DNA of 64,000 bases from Citrus sinensis. Its lineage: Eukaryota; Streptophyta; Magnoliopsida; Sapindales; Rutaceae. This document shows positions 1,445 through 64,000 of this stretch, one piece after another. The position numbers and the translations under genes were made by a program. Within the stretch, counting starts at the first letter, position 1. The number at the start of each line of letters is the position of its first letter. The stretch lies in assembly GCF_022201045.2 (NCBI RefSeq), contig NC_068563.1, positions 7,316,001 through 7,380,000 of the forward strand, read 5' to 3'. The notes beneath the pieces were generated by a model that had not been told where the DNA came from, did not search any database, and worked only from the letters and a program-made list of their open reading frames with translations.

Positions 1445-1885
1445 ATGTCGAAGTGCAACAAAATCCGTCACATTGTGAGGATCCGTCAGATGCTGAGGCA
1501 GTGGCGTAGGAAGGCCCGGATAGCGGCCTCGGCCTCCCGTGCGACGCCGTCCGATGTTCCAGCGGGACACGTGGCTGTCTGCGTGGGGAGCAGCTCTAGG
1601 AGGTTCATCGTGCGCGCGACGTACCTGAACCACCCCATGTTCAAGAAGCTCCTCGTGCAAGCCGAAGAGGAGTACGGTTTCAGCCACGTGGGCCCGTTAA
1701 CTATCCCCTGTGACGAGTCCACGTTCGAGGAGATCCTCCGGGTCGTCTCCCGCCCCGAAACCGGTACCCCGGATCCGTTATGGAGCGTCAAGGAGGTCCA
1801 GAGGTGCTGCCACGTGGGCATGAGGGATAACAATCTCCAGTTTTTGAACGAATCGAGGCCGTTGCTTCGTGGAGCGCTTGGCTGA
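1445..1885 (+). CDS. SAUR-family auxin-responsive protein, SAUR49/SAUR52-like (146 aa)
   Basis: Complete intronless frame. The N-terminus is basic (KIRHIVRIRQMLRQW at about residues 6-20), as in the Arabidopsis SAUR49/52/53/69 subgroup. The SAUR domain runs from about residue 37 (DVPAGHVAVCVG) through RFIVRATYLNHPMF and AEEEYGF to GPLTIPCDE near residue 90. A 45-residue tail follows, which the short SAURs lack. SAURs of this kind are known to bind PP2C-D phosphatases at the plasma membrane and relieve their inhibition of proton pumps, promoting cell expansion; this role is inferred here. The third codon positions are clearly more G+C-rich than in the other SAURs of the window. The start is the first ATG after the probable TATA box. 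A normal YVG is replaced by CVG. Family call is secure; the exact orthologue is likely but not proven. Confidence 0.93.
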   Translation: MSKCNKIRHIVRIRQMLRQWRRKARIAASASRATPSDVPAGHVAVCVGSSSRRFIVRATYLNHPMFKKLLVQAEEEYGFSHVGPLTIPCDESTFEEILRVVSRPETGTPDPLWSVKEVQRCCHVGMRDNNLQFLNESRPLLRGALG

Positions 1886-12605: not shown

Positions 12606-14066
12606 GGGTTCGCCTAAGTTACATTTAGCGTAACTTACGGCTGACCCCCACAATATCAATTAGCCCCATATACTCTATAGTATTTACAATTTATTCATAA
12701 GAATTATAAAACTTTTTATCCTGTAAAATTTCGTTGAACCTCTTATACTCTGTTTTATTTTATTGAAACCCTTAAAGTACCAATTCACCCCCTATAATTT
12801 TAAATTTCCAAAATACCCTCCATTTAATTAAAAAATAAAATAATTATTAAATAGATTATAATTATAATAATATAACTAATATGATTATTATAATTATAAT
12901 TTTAAATGGATTATTATTATTATTATTAACAACAAGAATAAAAAGTATTATAATTAATTAATCTATTAACAATAATTAATAATAATTTTTAGTTAAAATG
13001 TCAATAATAATAATTAACAATAATTACTATTAATAATTAATTTTTGAATAATAATAACAATAACAATAATTAAAATAAAAAATAATTATAATAAAATTAA
13101 TTAAGGATTTTATAGTAATTTATTACTATTTAACTCATTCCGATATTTATTATAAGAAAAAATAAACACATAAATGGTAATACCGTTTATTTTAATTACA
13201 ATTCATGCAGTTCAAGTAAATAAATTATTCTAATTCCAATTCTTCATTTTAATTCTAGTTATTCCAATTCTAACTCATTATGTTTCCAGCTAATTTCGAT
13301 TCCTTTTTAATGAATGCACTATAAAATTGTAAATCATTTTATATTCAATTAGACCACTCTATATTATTTACAGTTTTTTTTATAAGTATTATGAATTTTA
13401 TAGTTCATTCACTAAACATGAATAAAAATTGAATGAAAACATAATAAGCTAAAATCAAAATATCTAGAATCCAAATGAGGAATTGGAATCAGAATAATTT
13501 ATTTACTTGAATGGCAGGAATCATAATTAGAATTAGCTGTATTACCATTTATGCGTTTACTTTGTCTGAGAATAAAAATCAGAATAAATTAAATTGTAAC
13601 AAATTAGTATAAAATCCTTCATTAATTTTTATCATAATTATTAATTTTTATTTTAATTATTGTTATTGTTATTATTATTCAAAAATTTAATTATTAATAG
13701 TAATTATTGTTATTATTATTATTATTAACATTTTAACTAAAACATTAATAGATTAATTAATTATAACACTTTTTATTCTTGTTAATAATAATAATAATAA
13801 TCCATTTAAAAATTATAATTATAATTTATTTAATAATTATTATATTTTTTAATTAAATGTAGGGTATTTTGGAAATTTAAAATTATAGGGGGTAAATTGG
13901 TACTCCAAGAGTTTCACTAAAATAAAACAGAGTACAAGGGGCTCAATGAAATTTTACAAGACAAAAAATTTTATAATACTTATACATAAATTATAAATAA
14001 TATAGAGTATAGGGAGCTGAATCACTAAACAAAATAAATTACTCTAAATGTAACTTAGGCAGACCC
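12606..14066. mobile_element. Mutator-like foldback element with very long terminal inverted repeats
   Basis: The two halves are near-complete inverted copies of each other. One end is GGGTTCGCCTAAGTTACATT; the other, reverse-complemented, is GGGTCTGCCTAAGTTACATT, and matching continues for hundreds of bases (for example the CCCCCTATAATTTTAAATTT tract at about 12787 and its complement at 13880). A perfect 9-bp direct repeat TATATTATA flanks it (12597-12605 and 14067-14075), the length made by Mutator transposases. There is no coding region. If transcribed, it would form a long hairpin RNA. Confidence 0.8.
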
Positions 14067-23962: not shown

Positions 23963-24283
23963 TCATCTAAGCATGGATGTTAGAGAGCGAAAAACGACTT
24001 CTTCACAAGGGATAGTGAGCCCCATATCATGATCGAAACCAAACTCTTCCTCAGCTTGTCGAAGCAGGCATTGAAACTCAGGATGAGACAAGAAAGAGAT
24101 TGGAACAATGTATCTGCTTCTGTGCTCGCCAACGTAGACAGCAAAATGGCCTTTCGGGACATCAAGAGGGAGGCCATCTTCATCATAGGAGCTATGTTGT
24201 TTCTTGCCCAGGCTTGAACATCTCTTGAGAATCTGCTTCAAGACTGCTGCTTGTGGGAGCTTGCTTGACTTTCTAATGGCCAT
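23963..24283 (-). CDS. SAUR-family protein, SAUR50/SAUR10-like (106 aa)
   Basis: Complete intronless frame, with a strongly conserved SAUR core: [20 protein letters not shown] at about residues 38-57, then [32 protein letters not shown] and a short LTSMLR end. The N-terminal [20 protein letters not shown] and the [10 protein letters not shown] stretch are hallmarks of the Arabidopsis SAUR10/SAUR50 group. Members of this group are known to promote hypocotyl or cotyledon growth by inhibiting PP2C-D phosphatases; that role is inferred here. The start is the first ATG after a TATA-like GTATTTAT about 115-120 bases upstream. Its position between a SAUR49-like gene and a TAF14 gene matches my memory of Arabidopsis gene order. 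Confidence 0.95.
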
Positions 24284-41026: not shown

Positions 41027-41329
41027 TTATGATCTAATCAATTGAGAAGTGATATCAGTGAAAGTGTCTTCTCCACAGGGGATTGTCAAACCGCCCATTG
41101 AATGGTTGAATCCGAATTCCTCTTCAACTCTACTTAGCAAATCTTGAAACAAAGGCTGGTTCAGATAGGATACAGGAATCAGAAAGCGCTTCATTTGAGT
41201 CTCTCCAACATATACTGCTAAGAAACCTTTTGGTACATCTAATGATGTTGAAGCTCCTTTCTTCGCATTTAGAACAGACTGCCGAAGAATTTGCTTAGCA
41301 AGAAAGAAACCAGGCAGACGAATAACCAT
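41027..41329 (-). CDS. SAUR-family protein, subtype A copy 2 (100 aa)
   Basis: Complete intronless frame starting [17 protein letters not shown]. Same core as A1 with few changes: [25 protein letters not shown], then [20 protein letters not shown], where the first A of the usual AEEEFGF is V and HPMGG is HSMGG. The end is ITSQLIRS. Compact SAUR19-24 type, presumed plasma-membrane-associated growth promoter. A tandem duplicate of A1; similarity continues at least 400 bases upstream. A 6.85-kb copia element sits 605 bases upstream of its start, beyond the TGTCTC motifs at 41746-41762, so the proximal promoter is intact. Confidence 0.94.
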
Positions 41330-41933: not shown

Positions 41934-42535
41934 TGTTGAAACAATAACAAACTTTATACCCTTAATCATGCATTTCCAAGCAAACACATATTTTAGGTAA
42001 TTTCGAAATTTACCATGATCTCCCATGAATCCGACCTTGGAAGCTTGTTATGGAGCTTTACCGAGTTGTTACAAGCTTGATCTAGCTTCTGAATTCCTGT
42101 TTCCCTTGCTTCAGCTCAAGGATTGGCTTGCTTCAAAATTTACTGTACATACACACACGGGAGACGAGAGGGAGAGGGAGAGAGAGAGAGGTGCACTGCG
42201 CACATGCCACTGATTTTTCAACAGTTAACTTCCAATGGGCTGAAGTTACTTAAATACAGCGGTTGAGCGCAGGGACCCCTCATGTGTTAATACAAAATTG
42301 CCCATCCCATTATGGGCTAAAATAACACAATTAAGGATATACTTGTCCATAATATACTACTGTACAAGGTATGTCAAAATTAGACTCATTAACACCATAT
42401 TTGATCACTTAATAAATGAGTTTGTCAAAATTGCTCAATAATATTTGACTTTAGTCACGTATTAATTCGGTAAAATATAGAAAATAATTAGAATGATTTA
42501 TGTCAGTCCACATAATGTGAGAAATAAATCTAACA
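41934..42535 (-). repeat. 3' LTR of copia-1
   Basis: 602 bases, same length as its partner. Contains a (GA)n tract at about 42165-42190. Ends TG...CA. Confidence 0.93.
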
Positions 42536-48182: not shown

Positions 48183-48784
48183 TGTTGAAACAATAACAAA
48201 CTTTATGCCCTTAATCGTGCATTTCCAAGCAAACACATATTTTAGGTAATTTCGAAATTTACCATGATCTCCCATGAATCCGACCTTGGAAGCTTGTTAT
48301 GGAGCTTTACTGAGTTGTTACAAGCTTGATCTAGCTTTTGAATTCCTGTTTCCCTTGCTTCAGCTCAAGGATCGGCTTGCTTCAAAATTTACTGTACATA
48401 CACACACGGGAGACGAGAGGGAGAGGGAGAGAGAGAGAGGTGCACTGCGCACATGCCACTGATTTTTCAACAGTTAACTTTCAATGGGCTGAAGTTACTT
48501 AAATACAGCGGTTGAGCGCAGGGACCCCTCATGTGTTAGTACAAAATTACCCATCCCATTATGGGCTAAAATAACACAATTAAGGATATACTTGTCCATA
48601 ATATACTACTGTACAGGATATGTCAAAATTAGACTCATTAACACCATATTTGATCACTTAATAAATGAGTCTGTCAAAATTACTCAACAATATTTAACTT
48701 TAGTCACGTATTAATTCGGTAAAATATAGAAAATAATTAGAATGATTTATGTCAGTTCACATAATGTGAGAAATAAATCTAACA
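48183..48784 (-). repeat. 5' LTR of copia-1
   Basis: 602 bases. Differs from 41934-42535 at about 15 positions, all A/G or C/T. Confidence 0.93.
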
Positions 48785-49432: not shown

Positions 49433-49732
49433 TCATGATCCATTCAAACTACAAGTAAGATTAATGAAGATATCTTCTCTACAAGGAATTGTGAGACTAC
49501 CCATTAGATGATTAAATCCAAATTCTTCTTAGGCTTTACTTAATAGTTCTTGAAAGGAAGGCTGATTCAAGAATGATACTGGAATGATGAATCTTGTCTT
49601 TTGGCTCTCTCCAACAGAAACAGCCAAATAACATTTGGGAACATCTACAAATGTTGAAGCTACTTGACGGGCAAATAATTTAGATTTGCAGAGAATCTGC
49701 TTGGCATGCATTACGCCAGGAGCGAAAAGCAT
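49433..49732 (-). pseudogene. SAUR subtype B copy 2, pseudogene
   Basis: Aligns end to end with B1 and B3. The frame opens at the ATG at 49730-49732 (reading MLFAPGVMHAKQIL where B1 has [15 protein letters not shown]), keeps [19 protein letters not shown], and then meets TAA at 49529-49531 where a glutamate codon should start the EEEFGF block. The rest of the domain ([19 protein letters not shown]) continues in the same frame to a TGA at 49433. Other drift: VPKG is VPKC and YVG is SVG. Its TATA box is also changed. A protein truncated at residue 67 would lack the conserved C-terminal half, so it is judged non-functional. Confidence 0.88.
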
Positions 49733-50344: not shown

Positions 50345-50646
50345 TTATGATCTATCTAATCGTGAAATGACCTCAATGAAAGTGTCCTGTCCACTGGGAA
50401 TTGTCGACGCACCCATTGGATAGTTAAAGCCGAATTCCTCTTCAGCTATAGCAAATCTTGAAACAAAGGCTGGTTCAGATAGGATACAGGAACCAGAAAC
50501 CGCTTCTTTTGATTCTCTCCGACATATACTGATAAGAAGCCTTTTGGTACATCTGCACATGTTGAAGCTTCTTTATTCTTTGTTGTTAGAACTGAGTGAG
50601 GAAGAATTTGTTTAGCAGGAATGAAACCAAGGACACGGATTCCCAT
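50345..50646 (-). pseudogene. SAUR subtype A copy 3, pseudogene
   Basis: Aligns with A1 and A2 over the full length. Starts [15 protein letters not shown] and keeps [19 protein letters not shown] and [15 protein letters not shown]. Then a deletion of about four bases near 50449 replaces the CTGAGCAGAGCA-type stretch of A1 and creates a TAG almost at once. The rest of the domain (EEEFGFNYPMG, then ending SRLDRS) is in another frame up to 50345. Further drift includes STIPSGQD for LTIPCEE, losing the conserved cysteine. The promoter is well kept, with TATA at 50767-50775 and TGTCTC at 51171-51176, so it may still be transcribed. Confidence 0.9.
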
Positions 50647-54847: not shown

Positions 54848-55144
54848 TCACAAATTACTCAAGCGGGAAGTGAGGTCAAGAAACATCTCTTCAGCACAGG
54901 GAATAGTAAGGCCTCCCATTGGATGATTGAACCCAAATTCTTCCTCTGCCTTGTATAGCAATTCCTGAAATAAAGGTTCATTCAAGAATGATATTGGGAT
55001 TACAAATCTTTTCTTTTCACACTGTCCAACATAAACTGCTAGGTTGCCTTTTGGAACATCTATGAATATAGATTGATTGGGGAAAAAATTTGATCTGCGA
55101 AAAACTTGTTTAGCATGCAAAATTCGAGGCAAACGGATAGCCAT
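54848..55144 (-). CDS. SAUR-family protein, subtype C copy 1 (98 aa), promoter split by a retrotransposon
   Basis: Complete intronless frame starting MAIRLPRILHAKQVFRR. Core: IDVPKGNLAVYVGQCEKKRF at about 28-47, [38 protein letters not shown] and an LTSRLSNL end. It is two residues shorter than A and B types in the N-terminal linker (FFPNQSIF). Compact SAUR type; role inferred as for its neighbours. The leader runs only 70 bases before a 5.6-kb copia element begins at 55215. The TATA box and upstream region that belong to this gene now lie beyond the element at 60864-60877 and onward. The intact frame shows that coding constraint has held or that the insertion is not old. The copia LTR may supply a promoter. 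Confidence 0.94.
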   Translation of the reverse strand: MAIRLPRILHAKQVFRRSNFFPNQSIFIDVPKGNLAVYVGQCEKKRFVIPISFLNEPLFQELLYKAEEEFGFNHPMGGLTIPCAEEMFLDLTSRLSNL

Positions 55145-55214
55145 TATTATTGAAGTTATTGCTAGAAAATGATGAATGTTACAAGTGATTTGGGAGCAGA
55201 AAGGAGAGCTTTAC

Positions 55215-55799
55215 TGTTGTACGTGGAATGCGGAATCAAGCGTATCAAATAATTATAGAAAAATAAAGGACAAAAGAATTACGTGGTTCAGTAATTAAAC
55301 CTACATCCATGGAAACAAGAAAGAATAATTGTTTATTTAACAATTAATAGAGTACAAATATTTTTGTAACGAATCTCACTTTCCAGAAACCCAAATATAC
55401 CCAGTACTCTCACATTCTGTAGGAAAGATAAATTCCCCAGACACACTTCTCTCACTTCTCTCAAAAGCTTAGAAACTTATAAGCTTAACAATTTTGGGAT
55501 GCTTAACAAATGAAAAACTCCCTCTATTTATAGGAAGTATTTTGCACTATTACAAATTCGGCGTTCACCAACAATTTGCCAAATTGTCAATGTTGTTGTT
55601 AATTTGTCAAACTATCACATGCTTCACCAACTCCTTTGGCTTCAATTTCCACGATTCCAACCACATGCTTCATCTAAATTTCCAAGGGTCTCTGCCAACT
55701 TTTCAAGCTTTGCATGCTTAGCCACATACATAGGTCAAATTTCTACAGTTGGTGCCAACTTTGGCCAATTTGTCACCAAGTTTTGTTAACTTTTCAATA
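55215..55799 (-). repeat. 3' LTR of copia-2, reading towards SAUR C1
   Basis: 585 bases. Its terminal CA on the internal side has become TA. Contains a TATA box facing C1 (next entry). Confidence 0.93.
55525..55532 (-). promoter_or_regulatory. TATA box in the copia-2 LTR
   Basis: TATAAATA on the minus strand, in the same place in both LTRs. In the 3' LTR, transcription from here would run into SAUR C1, whose start codon is about 380 bases downstream. Confidence 0.55.
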
Positions 55800-56816
55800 A
55801 TTCTCCACCTCGGCGAAGATTTGTCCAAATCTGAGCCGACTTACCAACGGATTATCATCCCCAAAGTGGCTGCATCTCTGTGACTGCCTACGTACCTTTG
55901 TCAACATATCTGATGGATTATCTTTGGTATCGATCTTTCTCAACCACACAATACTGCTCTCGATAATCTCTCTCACATAATGATATTTCACATCTATGTG
56001 CTTCGTCCGAGCGTGATATGTTTGATTCTTCGCAATGAATATCTCATTTTGATTATCACAGAAGACCGCAATATTCTCCTGGATTATTCCCAAATCACCT
56101 AACAAGCCTTTGAACCAGATAGCTTCTTTTACAGCTTCAGTTGCTGCCATATACTCTGCTTTCGTAGTGGACAGAGTAATTGTCGTTTGCAAAATTGACC
56201 TCCAGCTAACCGGACCTCCACCCAATGTGAATACGTAGCCCATTGTTGATCTTCGCTTGTCAAGGTCTCCAACGAAATCAGAATCACAATACCCAACACA
56301 TTGTTGACCACAATCCTTATTGAACAATAACCCAACATCAACTGTCCCATACAGATATCGAAGAACCCACTTTACCGTAAGCCATTGATTTTTACCCGGA
56401 TTGTGCATGTATCTACTAATCATGCTTATTGCTTGAGATATATCGGGCCTTATATATACTATAGCATACATAAGACTACCCACAACACTAGCATATGGAA
56501 CGCGAGCCATGTAATTGCGCTCTTCTTGAGATCTAGGACATGAAGAAGAGATTAATTTGAAATGAAGAGCTAAAGGTGTACATACCGGTTTAGTTTTGTC
56601 ATCCATGCCAAATCTTTCTAGCACTTTCTTCAAATAAGACTCTTGAGTCAACCATACGCTCCCATTCTTCTTGTCTCTACGAATCTCCATCCCAAGTCTT
56701 CTCTGTGCATTACCCAAGTCTTTCATCTCGAACTCAGAAGCCAGTTGCTTCTTTAATCTTTCGATCTCGTCTCTATTCTTCGAAGCTATAAGCATATCAT
56801 CCACATAGAGTAACAA
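55794..56816 (-). pseudogene. copia-2 reverse transcriptase C-terminus and RNase H
   Basis: Open frame from the catalytic YVDD (LLYVDDMLIAS) through FEMKDLG, VPYASVVGSLMYA, GYCDSDFVGD, TKAEYMA and KHIDVKYHYVRE, ending in the 3' LTR. This is the least damaged part of the element, but it is cut off from the rest of the polymerase by a stop near 56990. Confidence 0.88.
55800..55815 (-). other. Polypurine tract of copia-2
   Basis: Minus strand CCGAGGTGGAGAAT next to the 3' LTR. Confidence 0.65.
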
Positions 56817-58424
56817 ATATATGAAAACTCCATCTAGTAGTCTTCTAAAGTAAACACAATGATCGTGTTCACTTCTAGTGAATTTATGCTATTGTATAAA
56901 TTGATCAAATCTTTTGTACTACTGCCTTGGCGATTGCTTCAGCCCGTACAAAGATTTAATCAACCTACACACATGATTCTACTTTTCAGCAACTCAGAAA
57001 ACGCAAGGCTGAATCATATAGATTTCTTCCTCCAAATCTCCATGTAAGAACGCCCTTTTAACATCCAATTGAGGCAACTCTAACTCATATTCTGCAACTA
57101 AGGCAAGTAGGATATGAATAGAAGTATATTTTACAACTGGAGAGAAAACTTCATTGTAGCCAATATCTTCATTTTGAGCAAAACCTTTTGCTATAAGCCT
57201 TGCCTTGTATCGAGGAGTTGTTTGATTTGGAGATCCTTGCTTTTTGGTGTGGACCCATTTATTGTCAATAGCCCTTTTCCCTTTTGGTAACTTTACAAGT
57301 TCCCAAGTCTGGTTTTGATGGAGAGATTTTATCTCTTCCTCCATGGCTAACTTCCACTGATCACTTTCACTCCTGCGTAATGCTTCACCGAAAGTGTTAG
57401 GGATGTTATCATCAATAACTGGAAGTGCATAGGCTACCACCATATCTTTAGTAAGCCATCCGGGTTTCTTTATCTCTCTTCTTGGCCTCCTTGTTGCTAT
57501 AAAATCATCATTATCTACATCATCAATTGTTTCTTCATTTTGTGGGACATCAGAAGAAACAACCTCTTTTTCAACTTTAGGTGTCACCTCCATAGTTGAA
57601 CTCTTCTTTGATGTAGAACTAACTGGTACATATGGAGTTGCATCAAACTCCACCTGCTGCAATACCTCTTTGTTCTTGTTCTCTACCTGCTGAGAACTTG
57701 AAGTTTTCATCATTAAAGCTTCATCAAATGTGACATCTCTGCTACACAAAAACTTTTTGTCTTCGAGATCCCAAAGCTTGAAGCACTTTCCTCCACCTTT
57801 GAATCCCACAAAGATAGCTCTTCTAGCACGAGGATCCAATTTACCATCTTTGACATGATAATAAGCTGGACACCCGAATATACGAAGGGAATCATAGTCT
57901 TGTGCATGCTTTCCAGACTACATTTCCATAGGAGTTTTACCTCCAATTACAGCAGAAGGCAACCAGTTTAGCAAGTGACTTGCGTAGCTCACAGTTTCAG
58001 CCCAAAACTTTTTATCTAAACCAGCATTAGATAACATACATCGTACATTTTCTAGTAAAGTACGATTCATACGCTCAGCCACACCATTATGTTGCGGAGT
58101 ATGTCTCATCGTAAAATGTCTTTTAATACCCTCGTTCTAGTATACTTGCAAGAATGGATCAGAAGTATATTCACCCCCATTATCAGATCGTAATACTTTG
58201 ATCTTTCTGCTAGTTTGAGTCTCCACCAATTTCTTCCATTTCACGAAAATCTCTAGAACCTCATCATTTGCTCGCATGGTGTACACCCACACACGTCTAG
58301 AGAAATCATCAACAAATGTAACAAAATAATGGCTTCCACTAATTGATGCAGTCTTGGTTGGTCCCCCATACATCACTGTGAACATATTCAAGGATCTCAC
58401 GAGTATCGTGATTAGCTGTACCAA
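56817..58424 (-). pseudogene. copia-2 integrase and reverse transcriptase N-terminus (several stops)
   Basis: Pieces at 58137-58424 (FVDDFSRRVWVY, SDNGGEY), 57918-58109 (TPQHNGVAERMNRTL) and 56994-57839 (FVGFKGGGKCFKL, KARLIAKGFAQNE, LDVKRAFLHGDLEEE) lie in order, separated by in-frame stops. Together they cover the integrase core and the palm region before YVDD. Confidence 0.87.
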
Positions 58425-59658
58425 ACTTGACCCTTGTTTTCTTGTCTATTACACAATGCTCACAGAAATTTAATTTATAGGTTTTGGTACCTTTTAAGAG
58501 TTCGTGCCTCATTAGAGTTTGCAAAGACTTCTCTCCAGCATGTCCCAGTCGTACATGCCATAGCTTGGTGGTGTCACTGTGCGCCTCAACAATATTTGCT
58601 TCATCAGTTGTACCTCCCTTCAAATAGTACAGATTGTGACGCCGAACCCCTTGCAAAATCACCATAGCCCCATGTGTAAACTTCATTATACCATCTTCAA
58701 TGGTAACCTTGTAACCTTTAACTTCCAAAGCACCCACAGAAATTAGATTTTTCTTTAAAGCTGGAACATATCTAACCTCTCTGAGTTCTCTGACCATTCC
58801 ATCAAACATTTTTAGCCGAATTGTTCCTATCCCCATTGTGCGACAAGGTTGATCATTCCCCATCACAATTGCACCAGATTCCAGATTACGAAAATCTGTA
58901 AACCATTCCTTAATAGGACACAAATGATAGGTTGCTCTAGTATCAAGTATCCACTCGCTCGAACTAGCCGCATATGCTGCAAGAGTAATACTTAGTGAAT
59001 AATTAGAGTCTTCATCTTTTCGGGCCATGTTTGCTGCTTCTGATTTCTTCCCATCTCTCTTTTGAGCATTTGGATAATCTTTCCTCCAATGACATTTTTC
59101 ATGACAAAAGGCACACTTGTCTCGAGGTATATTTCTACTTCTCGATTTGGATTGAGAATTCTTTCCACCACGCTTCTTCTGTTTCTCCATGGCCCAATCT
59201 CTGCTCACCAAAGCTTCAGACGATGCTCGTTCAGAATTTTTATCATTATTCTGAATTTCTAAGCTAGTCAATACTGTACAAACATCTTTAAAGGCGATCA
59301 CACTCTTCTCATATATCAAAGTAGTCACAAAATGGCTATATTCCTTTGGTAGTGAGTGTAACAGAATCATAGCCTTGACTTCATCCTTAATATCTTGATC
59401 AAGATTCTTCAAATAAGCAAGTAACTTTTCAAATATTGAGACATGATCGTGCATTGACACCCCAGGCTTCATTCGAAAGCCATATACTTGGCTCATTGCA
59501 TGAAGGCGATTTTCAGGACTTTTCACCAGGTACTTCCCCTCCAATGTACGCCACAAAGTCACCGCACACTCCTCATCTTTCACTAAGTATTTCACCTCCT
59601 TAGTCAAATAAGATCTGATCTGATCTGACCACAAACTTTCTCGTTCATACGATTCCAA
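58339..59658 (-). pseudogene. copia-2 gag C-terminus, protease and pre-integrase
   Basis: 439-codon open frame. Contains the gag UBN2-like part (HAMSQVYGFRM, LLHSLPKEY), a zinc knuckle CAFCHEKCHWRKDY whose glycine is C and whose last cysteine is Y, then WILDTRATYHLCP where the protease motif D-S/T-G is D-T-R, then LWHVRLGHAGEKSL of the pre-integrase zinc finger. The frame is open, but both the knuckle and protease active site look disabled. Confidence 0.88.
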
Positions 59659-59909
59659 ATTTCTTCATCATACAAGTATCTTTTATTTTTCAGAACAATA
59701 TCGAGATCGATTTGAATAAGGGCATCCATAACTTCGCGCCTCCACATGCCGAAGTTGATTTTCCCATCAAACTTTTCAACATCGATCTTTTGGCCTCCTA
59801 TAACAAGTACTGAATAGCGATTTGACAAATCTCGCCTCCCACTTGAAGTGTCTCCTGAAATAGTCTCGGTAGATCTCTCCCCAATTCTAGAAGTTTCACC
59901 TTCTACCAT
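59604..59909 (-). pseudogene. copia-2 gag N-terminus
   Basis: Starts at the ATG 59907-59909 and carries VEKFDGKINFGMWRREV, the usual copia gag start block. A frameshift near 59640 separates it from the next frame. Confidence 0.82.
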
Positions 59910-60211
59910 TTTCTCAACGAAGTATTTCTACTTGAAAAACAACCTCTATGATGTTAATTTCGCATGAATAAATGCACCAGAAAAGTTCTCAGGAGACTGG
60001 ACGGGAACTCGGTCCCAATTAAAAACCAGAATCCTTAGACTTTTATCGCCTTTGTTGACAGAACTTTCCTAGACATGTAAAAATACACACTACTTACAGT
60101 AGACTGTCTCCCAAGTACAAATGGCCGTCTCTACCGTATTCGTGAACAGTACCGTATGTGAACAGTACCGTATATGTGAACAGTATCGTATCCCCCAAGT
60201 ACGAACCGTCG

Positions 60212-60223
60212 GCTCTGATACCA
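60212..60223 (-). other. Primer binding site of copia-2 (initiator tRNA-Met)
   Basis: Minus strand TGGTATCAGAGC, two bases from the 5' LTR. Identical to the copia-1 site. Confidence 0.92.
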
Positions 60224-60225
60224 CT

Positions 60226-60810
60226 TGTTGTGCGCGGAATGAGGAATCAAGCGCACCAAATAATTATAGAAAAATAAAGGACACAAGAATTACGTGGTTC
60301 GGTAATTAAACCTACATCCACCGAGGCAAGAAAGAATAATTGTTTATTTAACAATTAATAGAGTACAAATATTTTTGTAACGAATCTCACTTCCCAGAAA
60401 CCTAAATATACCCAGTACTCTCACACTTTGCAGGAAAGATAAATTCCTCAAACACACTTCTCTCACTTCTCTCAAAAGCTTAGAAACTTATAAGCTTCAC
60501 AATTTTGGGATGCTTAACAAATGAAAAACTCCCTCTATTTATAGGAAGTATTTTGCACTATTACAAATTCGGCGTTCACCAACAATTTGCCAAATTGTCA
60601 ATATTGTTGTGAATTTGTCAAACTGTCACATGCTTCACCAACTCCGTTGGCTTTAATTTCCACGATTCCAACCACATGCTTCATCTAAATTTCTAAGGGT
60701 CTCTGCCAACTTTTCAAGCTTTGCATGCTTAGCCACATGCATGTGTCAAATTTCCAAGGTCGGTGCCAACTTTGGCCAATTTGTCACCACGTTTTGTCAA
60801 GTTTTCAACA
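60226..60810 (-). repeat. 5' LTR of copia-2
   Basis: 585 bases, ends TG...CA intact. Differs from 55215-55799 at about 36 positions including transversions. Confidence 0.93.
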
Positions 60811-60815
60811 TTTAC

Positions 60816-61450
60816 AAGACTTGAAATGTGAGTACCTGGTTTTGTTGGAGACACAATGTGCTCTATATATATATATAGATCAAGGGAGAGTAGCTAAAAC
60901 CTCCTGGAGGTGGAACTAGTGGTGAAGAGGAATTTGTGCTGATTTATTGAGACATAGCCATCTGAAAGAAGAAAGATCACATGATCTTGTCTTGAAGATC
61001 AAATACTTGGCTTAAACAAGTACTGCATATTTGTTGGATAGCATTTTGGCCAGCCATGTAAGGTGAGTGACCAACCTACAAGAGACCCTACTAAGAATTA
61101 AACAGATTTGGCAGGGACAAGTACCCTTAGTGCTCTTTGAACAATATCAAAGAATATATATTCATTATTTGCAAAGTGAAAAATCTGAAAGTGTTAAGAA
61201 CATTAGAGCTTGGAGGTGTCTATATAGTTAAAGCAAAAGGCAGGAATATGACTGTATTTGTTGTCTTAGCTCCTTAAGTTGGCAGACAGGCCCTTGTGAA
61301 TTGCATATGAAGCATGTCCTACGACTAGTCGCTATCTGAACCCATACACTATTTTTTTCCCCAAGCCATATTACTGTTGAAATGGATAGGATTGCCACAG
61401 ATAGATGATAACATAGTCAATGCTGGCCATGTAAAATTTGAGAGGTAGGA
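60816..61450 (-). promoter_or_regulatory. Stranded original promoter of SAUR C1
   Basis: Starting right after the copia-2 target repeat, AAGACTTGAAATGTGAG and GGTTTTGTT, then a (TA)7 TATA box at 60864-60877, then GGTGGAACTAGTGGTGAAGAG and AAAGATCACATGATCTTGTC. Each of these has an inverted counterpart before the C2 pseudogene (62680-62900). The original gene therefore continued from here straight to position 55209. Confidence 0.8.
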
Positions 61451-62278
61451 ATTAACTCATCTTAGTCTACTGCACAATCATTTATTTCGTAGAAAGGCAA
61501 AAATGCCAAATTGCCTTCAGATAAGTTTGAAAAACTGGATGACTAATTATATCAACGTGGTTAACGAGGAGCCAGTCTTGATTGGATATTTTCTATAGAT
61601 TTGTATGGAGAAGTACTTTGGCATAGACAATCCTGCATAAATATTTAAAGGAAGGAGAGGATTCATTTTGCTTGCACTTTAGGTATGTAATTGCTTTCAC
61701 CTAGACTCCATTCATTGGGGAAATTGTGTTGCAAAACCACATATTTGTCTACAAATTGTGTTGTCTATTTGTTTACACAAATATGGCCTACAATTTTGGT
61801 AATACACCACTGAAATTCAAGCTAGAGATTGCATATGCCTACTAATTATTATTAATATGATCAGCTTCACTATAAATACGAGACTGACGGAACTTTGCTT
61901 TGCGGACAAGATTGAGACAACCGAGTCAGCGAATGCTCCTCAAATGAGATATGAACAATAAACATGAGTATGATAGAACTAGAAAGTCTGATAAAACCAA
62001 TAGACACAGAAAATGAAACCGAAAAAAGGGATACATGACATTTCGGAGCTGATTGAGACTGTGCAACATATTATGCTCAACCATTTTAACATATATCACA
62101 TTATAACGTGCTTTAAATTTCTGTAAACAAAATAAGAAATCAGATCCCTCTGTCAAAGATAGCAAACAGAAGTTTTTTATTTCATCCTTATGAATGTAAT
62201 CTCAAAAAATTAACCATGAATATGTGTTAATCAATCTGAGCGCACCAAAAGTATTCTTCTTTGAAAAGGCTTTTAAAA
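61451..62278. other. Spacer with relics of A-type and B-type SAUR promoters
   Basis: 61783-61800 (AATATGGCCTACAATTTTGG) and TGTCTC on the minus strand at 61914-61919 match the A-type upstream block. 62040-62090 (TTTCGGAGCTGATTGAGACTG, then TTATGCTCAACCATTT) matches the B-type upstream block of B3. No SAUR coding sequence remains with either. Confidence 0.55.
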
Positions 62279-62279
62279 A

Positions 62280-62948
62280 TTACTCAAGTCTTCATGAGAT
62301 TTGGCATTATTGCTTTTCCTGAAGTAATATGCAGCAGACTGAGGTGAAATGATTCCTACCTCTCAAATTTTAGTTGGCCAGCATTGACAAGTGAGAGTTC
62401 TGATAGTTGACTTGTGTAGGACACACTTCATGCATAAATAGAGCCATATTCCTGCCTTCTGCTTTAATTAATTACATTTGTAGACATCTGCAAGCTCTAA
62501 TATTTTTAGCACTTTCAGATTTCACTTTGCAAATAATATATATTCTTTGATTGTTCAGATGATATTAATAGTACTGGTCCCTGGCAAAATCTATTTAATT
62601 CATAGTAGGGCCTGTTGCTGGTTGCTGACCTTAAATGGTTGGCCAAAATGCTTTCTAACGAAAATTAAGCATCAATTTGTTGCCAAATTTTTTATCTTGA
62701 AGACAAGGCCATGTGATCTTTCATATGCTATGTCTCACTAAATTAAATCAGCCCAAATTCCTCTCCACCACAAGCTCCACCTCTTTTAAGTTTTTGCTGC
62801 TCTTCCTCAATCTATTTATACAAAATATAAGCACACTGTGCCCGAAACAAAACCAAATACTCATCACATTTCTCTCCTACTAAACTTTCCTTTCTGCCAC
62901 CAAATCACTTGTTATCTTCATCATTTTTTAGCAATAACTTCCATAGCC
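62280..62948 (+). promoter_or_regulatory. Promoter and leader of the C2 pseudogene, inverted copy of the C1 promoter
   Basis: Reverse-complement match to 60816-61450 plus 55145-55214. TATA-like TATTTATACAAAATATAAG at about 62812. This copy has no element inserted, so it shows the original uninterrupted structure. Confidence 0.75.
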
Positions 62949-63240
62949 ATGGATATTCGTTTGCATACAACTGTGCATTCTAAACAAGTTCTCCTCAGAT
63001 AAGTTTGGTTTCAAATAATCAATCAATAGTCATAAATGTTCCTAAAGGCTTCGTTGCAGTTTATGTTGGAGAGAGCGAAAAGAAAAAATTCGTAATCCCA
63101 TATCGTTCTTGAATGAACCTTCATCTCAAGAATTGCTATGCAAGGCAGAGGAAAATTTTGGGTTCAATCATCCCATGGGAGGCCTCAAAATTCCCAGTGC
63201 TGAAGAAATTTTTGTAGAATCTCACTTCTCAGTTGAGTAG
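62949..63240 (+). pseudogene. SAUR subtype C copy 2, inverted pseudogene
   Basis: Starts MDIRLHTTVHSKQVLLR and then hits TAA at 62999-63001 after a one-base loss. In the next frame it reads [19 protein letters not shown] and VIPY, where a second one-base loss near 63102 gives TGA at 63108. In the third frame it continues with a LNEPS block, [19 protein letters not shown] and ends at TAG 63238-63240. It is closest to C1, which shares FLNEP and the short N-terminal linker. It is the only cluster member on the plus strand. Two frameshifts, IPS for IPC and loss of the usual end make function very unlikely. Confidence 0.92.
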
Positions 63241-64000
63241 TGCTTGATATACGGCAATACAAAAATGTATCAGAAGGAACAATTTTGTTTACTATATAAA
63301 TATTTATCTTTTTGGTGGAGGAAGAGATGTATCCGGAAAATTTATACATTTTCAAGAAAGAGTTAATTAGTACGTAATAGAAAATATTTGAAGATTATCA
63401 CATTTTAATCACCTTTACCAAAATATATATAATTCGATCCATGTGTTTGCCTATAACTTCTGATGGATAAACTTGTGCAAGGTACTTCACGAGTGTTTTT
63501 GTTGAGTGCTTATTTTTATTTAATCTGTTTATTGCTTGAATTTCTTGAATATTAGAAACTGAAATGTATTCAATTTATTGATTTTTTACTTATGAATTAA
63601 TATTATAAAAACAACTTAACACCTTAAGATATCCCGTCAAGCTTCTTTATTTAGTTGGCCACTTGAGTTTAAATGTGGAGCAGACTAATAATCTCATAAG
63701 AGGACTAAAGCAGGTTACCACGAATGTGACATATGGAGTCCATAATATTCTTTCTAAAGAGATTTGATTCGGAACTATTATATGTCCAAGGTCCAATATT
63801 GAAATAATTTTAGAGGTTTTCCCTGACTTTGTCCGTGTCAACAAACAATTCGAAATGCCTCGACTTTTTTAGAACAGGTCCGGGTCAAATAGCAATGATC
63901 TAAAGCACTTCCTTTTACAACTCAATCGTATGATATGACACTCAAACCATGAATGCTTTTATCCTTATCATTTCTAATCAGTTCCTCGTTCAGGACCTTA
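63241..64000. other. Flank beyond the SAUR cluster
   Basis: AT-rich, no gene seen. Contains a dispersed repeat at 63747-63835. Confidence 0.45.
63747..63835. repeat. Dispersed repeat, copy 2
   Basis: AGATTTGATTCGGAACTATT and ATATGTCCAAGGTCCAATATTG match 25945-26020 in the same orientation. Confidence 0.4.

Follow-up and report, generated by a model that had tools for sequence, protein, structure and literature searches.

A copia retrotransposon in the expected 5' leader of a citrus SAUR gene, beside an inverted paralogue that keeps the empty site: promoter loss weighed against promoter swap

The insertion of a long terminal repeat (LTR) retrotransposon next to a gene is a well-known kind of event and ordinary in kind. 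In blood orange, Ruby is said to take its transcription start from the 3' LTR of Tcs1 (Butelli et al. 2012, retold in PMC5056178). In cotton, LTR-retrotransposon insertion polymorphisms are described near SAUR-like genes and, according to the authors, auxin-response genes are enriched among the strongly differentiated insertion polymorphisms of G. hirsutum (PMC12557855). The part of PMC10651928 that deals with SAUR72 concerns its copy number in apple and is not relevant here. The present text is about a comparable event in Citrus sinensis, in which a copia element stands directly upstream of a SAUR gene, here called C1, within a window of 64,000 nucleotides (positions 7316001-7380000 of contig C8; the genome searched comprised 299.7 Mb in 11 contigs). 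A literature search that did not use the species as a term found no title on the C1 locus, which is a weak negative.

The insertion beside C1 is genuine, and chance is not an issue, because the LTR pair, the exact 5-bp duplication, the copia domains and the continuous alignment of a twin gene lacking the element all agree. It appears to have split the expected 5' leader of C1, below the expected transcription start, and would thus not have destroyed the promoter itself, because the old TATA tract lies 132 bp before the ATG when the flanks of the element are joined. On balance, we lean towards the view that C1 is losing its normal expression and decaying, and favour it over a swap to an LTR promoter. 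The features on which the argument rests are as follows.

54848-55144, minus strand: SAUR gene C1, intact 98-codon frame with a PF02519 match
55145-55209, minus: gene-side remainder of the old C1 5' leader, 65 nt, without ATG; aligns with the leader of the twin
55210-55214, minus: target-site duplication TTTAC, gene side
55215-60810, minus: copia element, 5,596 bp, on the same strand as C1 and ending 70 bp before its ATG
55215-55799, minus: 3' (gene-side) LTR, 585 bp, reading towards C1
55525-55532, minus: TATA motif of the 3' LTR, TATAAATA; same motif and same place in both LTRs
55800-60225, minus: internal region of the element, with Retrotran_gag_2 (gag), Pol_BBD, gag_pre-integrs, rve and RVT_2 in copia order
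60226-60810, minus: 5' (far) LTR, 585 bp
60811-60815, minus: target-site duplication TTTAC, far side
60816-60845, minus: far-side stub of the old 5' leader, placed by TATA spacing; aligns with the twin; inferred start at about 60845
60864-60877, minus: old C1 TATA tract
60949-60954, minus: TGTCTC motif upstream of the old TATA; aligns with that of the twin at 62731
62800-62948, plus: TATA region and leader of the twin, uninterrupted at the position that holds the element in C1
62949-63239, plus: inverted twin of C1, a pseudogene whose upstream region is a natural empty site

The single-copy (empty) state of the insertion site is preserved in the inverted twin. Searched with the C1 coding sequence, the genome yielded 16 matches; after C1 itself, this twin ranks first (82%), and the two are 81% identical over 294 aligned bases. 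When the flanks of the element are joined, C1 aligns with the twin over 1,039 columns (74%), unbroken across the insertion point; the C1 side of this alignment runs from about 61259 to 60811 and on from 55209 to about 54685, the twin side over 62436-63444. C1 and the twin form a head-to-head inverted duplication (60811-63444) that includes at least 0.4 kb of upstream DNA. One copy is intact; the other is a pseudogene, which is stopped early at codon 18 and carries three indels that shift its frame against that of C1. The anatomy and insertion history proposed in the initial annotation (an intact 98-codon C1, a 5.6-kb copia element with TTTAC flanks 70 bases before its ATG, the old TATA just past the far side, and a gene-side LTR reading towards C1 with its own TATA motif) appear to be right in each of these points and are now backed by an empty-site paralogue.

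That annotation had also placed the insertion between the TATA box and the start codon; the position holds, with the refinement that it probably falls within the leader and not in the promoter itself. With the expected start taken about 32 nt below the TATA, and so inferred from it, the joined native leader would be about 100 nt long, without ATG, and the element would lie about 35 nt into it. Comparable spacing is seen in the twin (TATA-like matches at -137 and -136) and in 12 of 13 paralogues, which have such a match between -79 and -153, the start codon of the one at -79 (L018) being doubtful; the remaining one, L011, has it only at -256/-255. These 13 paralogues are the nine of 20 fetched cluster loci that passed a length and motif filter, together with four from the window; the filter removed the 11 other fetched loci, some of which have no stop in the PF02519 match, and more distant SAUR matches at window positions 1478-1744 and 23969-24241 were left out of the set. 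TGTCTC is an auxin-response-type motif. The stranded upstream region holds two copies (60848-60853 and 60949-60954) against a shuffle mean of 0.31, both strands together, and the copy at 60949-60954 is now cut off from C1, beyond the element. A scan of both strands of the gene-side LTR for TGTCTC, TGTCGG and TGTCCC found none.

The element is akin to the Ty1/copia LTR retrotransposons of plants in its LTR pair, 5-bp duplication and copia domain order; it differs in that the coding region of the window copy is broken, into several separate frames, and nothing else unusual was seen. In the Pfam search, integrase precedes reverse transcriptase (rve at 58137-58385; RVT_2 at 56994-57713 and 55794-56795, minus strand), and no RNase H domain is reported for the frame 55794-56795, which may nonetheless be copia RNase H-like. 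A candidate primer-binding site, TGGTATCAGAGC (minus strand), lies two bases inside 60226, adjoining the 5' LTR, and presumably fits the initiator methionine tRNA. The two LTRs differ at 36 of 585 aligned sites, without gaps (p 0.0615; 26 transitions, 10 transversions), in line with the divergence of about 6% first noted; the Kimura two-parameter (K2P) distance is 0.065 (bootstrap 95% 0.044-0.087). Plant substitution rates of 6.5e-9 to 1.5e-8 per site per year would date the insertion to about 2-5 million years ago at the point estimate and to 1.5-6.7 million years ago with the bootstrap limits. Among the 42 LTR matches listed (40 of 487 candidates were scored), 24 begin at query positions 252-274, near the TATA motif, and run towards the LTR end, while only nine begin at or before position 31 and reach the end; the LTR looks modular, its unique 3' (U3) part being common to few copies. 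When the 20 LTR places and 79 PF02519 places listed were compared by eye, both numbers being lower bounds, only the two LTRs of this element were less than 400 kb from a PF02519 place.

On the favoured reading, a Ty1/copia element inserted itself into the expected 5' leader of C1, on the strand of the gene, and duplicated TTTAC; of this, the insertion, its exact site and the single-copy state of that site in the twin are shown. Transcripts from the old promoter would now enter the element and would be expected to terminate at an LTR poly(A) signal, so that C1 would have lost its proximal promoter with the TATA tract and the TGTCTC motif. This would leave C1 with little or no normal auxin-type expression, and any residual expression would come from the gene-side LTR. 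That the frame of C1 is open would then be due mostly to how recent the insertion is (K/2 about 0.03) and be no proof of use.

The meaning of the open frame deserves particular care. The initial annotation had taken it as fitting either LTR-driven expression or a gene on its way to decay. Both remain the right alternatives; the argument drawn from the frame is weak, since from the LTR clock about 6-13 neutral changes are expected in C1 since the insertion, and the probability that the frame would be open by chance is 0.61-0.78 with substitutions alone and 0.17-0.41 if indels, assumed to be 10% as frequent as substitutions, are added (the LTR pair itself has no indel). With neutral survival anywhere from 0.17 to 0.78, an open frame does not decide the matter.

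Substitution rates in C1 and the twin were compared by a three-taxon NG86 (Nei-Gojobori) analysis with six outgroups over 94 codons (99 including the stop; four gapped codons and one twin-stop codon were removed). The nonsynonymous rate (dN) is 0.046-0.069 for C1 and 0.117-0.140 for the twin, and the whole-branch ratio to the synonymous rate (dN/dS) is 0.17-0.43 and 0.58-3.1, respectively, as values that vary with the outgroup, dS to the outgroups being near saturation (0.85-1.99). C1 has a lower dN than the twin with all six outgroups, and the interval of the difference excludes zero for three of them (W53, W39 and L011); for dN minus dS, the interval includes zero with all six, in C1 and in the twin alike (bootstrap replicates without a value were dropped, leaving 173 to 300 of 300). 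These estimates cover the whole time since the C1-twin split, and selection on C1 after the insertion is not separable from what went before, because the split (dS 0.36) is about five times as deep as the divergence of the LTRs.

The most serious competitor of C1 decay, possible and by no means negligible, is a promoter swap in which the 3' LTR would now initiate transcription of C1 about 30 nt downstream of its own TATA (at about 55500), element-controlled expression thereby replacing the auxin-type promoter. The arrangement is suited to it, with a sense-oriented LTR 70 bp from the ATG, TATAAATA intact and the C1 frame open. The substitution pattern of the LTRs also points this way. Polarised by the majority of seven other LTRs, all 36 differences can be assigned to one copy or the other: the gene-side LTR took 24 of them and the far LTR 12 (P 0.065). 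None of the 24 falls at LTR positions 201-379, a stretch of 179 bp around the TATA that was chosen after the data had been seen, and with 24 changes placed uniformly, a gap of this length or longer has a probability of 0.003; in the far LTR, four of the 12 changes lie there (Fisher 0.008). As a pair, the LTRs of this element have 4/179 differences in the core against 30/394 in the rest, LTR positions up to 12 being excluded because flanking bases were misaligned there (which takes the ratio of core to rest from 4:32 to 4:30). The first three control LTR pairs have no low core rate (9/178 against 14/393, 13/180 against 26/394 and 8/179 against 16/353), and the ratio is lower in the C1 element than in these (4:32 against 30:56, P 0.008) and than in six controls pooled (4:30 against 57:127, P 0.022).

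However, the conservation of the LTR core, strong at first, became weaker after cluster merging and with the three added control pairs, and is best regarded as a hint. If changes within 6 bp are merged, 14 events remain and the gap has P 0.085; if the LTR labels are shuffled, the gap has P 0.019 and the presence of at least four far-LTR changes inside it P 0.052. Windows around the TATA with a fixed length of 101-103 bp hold no gene-side change (P 0.010-0.011) but only one far-LTR change (Fisher 0.33). A low core rate is also found in two of the six control pairs, both among those added (5/109 against 20/189 and 3/111 against 15/201), and mildly in the third (19/173 against 36/261), although in these added pairs, which span distances of 12, 15 and 16 kb, the LTRs were matched up by position and flanks only, and one of them (C5:8668517/8684418) also has differing U3 ends. 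A further difficulty lies in the leader of an LTR-started transcript, which would be about 358 nt long and carry three upstream ATGs (-271, -166 and -162), of which the one at -166 opens a 21-codon frame ending at -100, none overlaps the C1 start and two are absent from the far LTR. The same leader would contain AATAAA, at LTR position 463, 195 nt after the TATA. The gene-side LTR is, in addition, rich in C>T decay (C>T or G>A in 19 of its 24 changes against six of 12 in the far LTR; 19 against 6, two-sided P 0.015; proportions, P 0.12), as would be expected if it were methylated. The stronger form of the proposal, namely that the gene-side LTR is the working promoter of C1 and that its 179-bp core was kept change-free for that reason, the far LTR core not being kept, seems unlikely to us.

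Several observations nonetheless weigh against the decay of C1. The change-free 179 bp around the gene-side TATA would fit promoter use. Methylation is a soft reading in view of its P values (0.065, 0.015 and 0.12), and 12 of the 19 C>T or G>A changes are in CHH context (H being A, C or T), but so are 171 of the 215 available sites, which shows no clear targeting. The lower dN/dS of C1 suggests past constraint on the gene, and at the 24 columns invariant in the 13 other cluster paralogues C1 is no worse than nine of the 13 in a leave-one-out comparison. Finally, C1 is intact, whereas the twin, with an undisturbed promoter, is broken.

Two other ways of keeping C1 under its old control fare much worse. 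It is highly improbable that the old promoter still works and that splicing removes the element as one long intron, with its donor in the far stub (CAG|GTACTC) and its acceptor at TTTTCTAG, right before the ATG: candidate donor and acceptor motifs are both present in the flanks, and the twin has AAAT where C1 has AGGT, but the donor is weak by the plant consensus, and the poly(A) signals of two LTRs would have to be skipped. Equally slight is the prospect that the old upstream region or the promoter of the twin acts as a distant enhancer on the LTR or on a cryptic start, leaving C1 some auxin response, for although the stranded region keeps its TATA tract and both TGTCTC motifs, 5.6 kb of transposon lie in between.

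C1 belongs to a large family cluster. Its 98-residue protein matches PF02519 (Auxin_inducible) in Pfam with E 4.7e-22 (78.5 bits, cut-off 26.3), and of the 79 PF02519 places listed genome-wide, 28, counted by hand, lie at C8:7.32-7.66 Mb. C1 departs from the 13 paralogues once among the 24 invariant columns (E41Q) and once among the 18 columns common to all but one of them (L15F), the departures of the other paralogues in the leave-one-out control ranging from 0 to 5. SAUR-like stretches at 49445-49699 and 50440-50580 have one in-frame stop each, and the cluster therefore holds several decayed members. A second LTR element on the minus strand is delimited by direct repeats at 41934-42233 and 48183-48482 (98% identical), and the frames between them look copia-like. 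It lies about 605 bp upstream of an intact SAUR gene (41027-41329, minus strand) whose own TATA, at -135, is undisturbed. Elsewhere in the window, nested inverted repeats occupy 12662-14018, the inner pair (13093-13341/13381-13629) being 80% complementary and 39 nt apart and the outer one (12662-12868/13812-14018) 89%.

With an LTR element and an intact-frame SAUR gene beside an inverted paralogue that keeps the pre-insertion promoter, the locus is a clean natural experiment. Were transcripts to start in the LTR, it would offer a promoter swap with a date and a built-in control, in an auxin-response family; were the LTR a working promoter, a SAUR gene would have given up a conserved auxin motif in favour of one from a retrotransposon, and the twin that kept the auxin promoter would have died. 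If no swap took place, it would be routine gene loss in progress, in a SAUR cluster where other members are already broken. Among the described systems, the cotton insertions include one 565 bp upstream of a gene and another in an intron (PMC12557855), whereas the C1 element is 70 bp from the ATG and is seen in one assembly. With Tcs1/Ruby, C1 shares a retrotransposon upstream of a plant gene. C1 also has what LTR promoter co-option of this type would call for, a sense LTR with a core promoter close upstream of an intact frame. Ruby expression has been measured, whereas C1 is known from its sequence; C1 differs further in that its element stands in the expected 5' leader and that an inverted paralogue gives the empty site.

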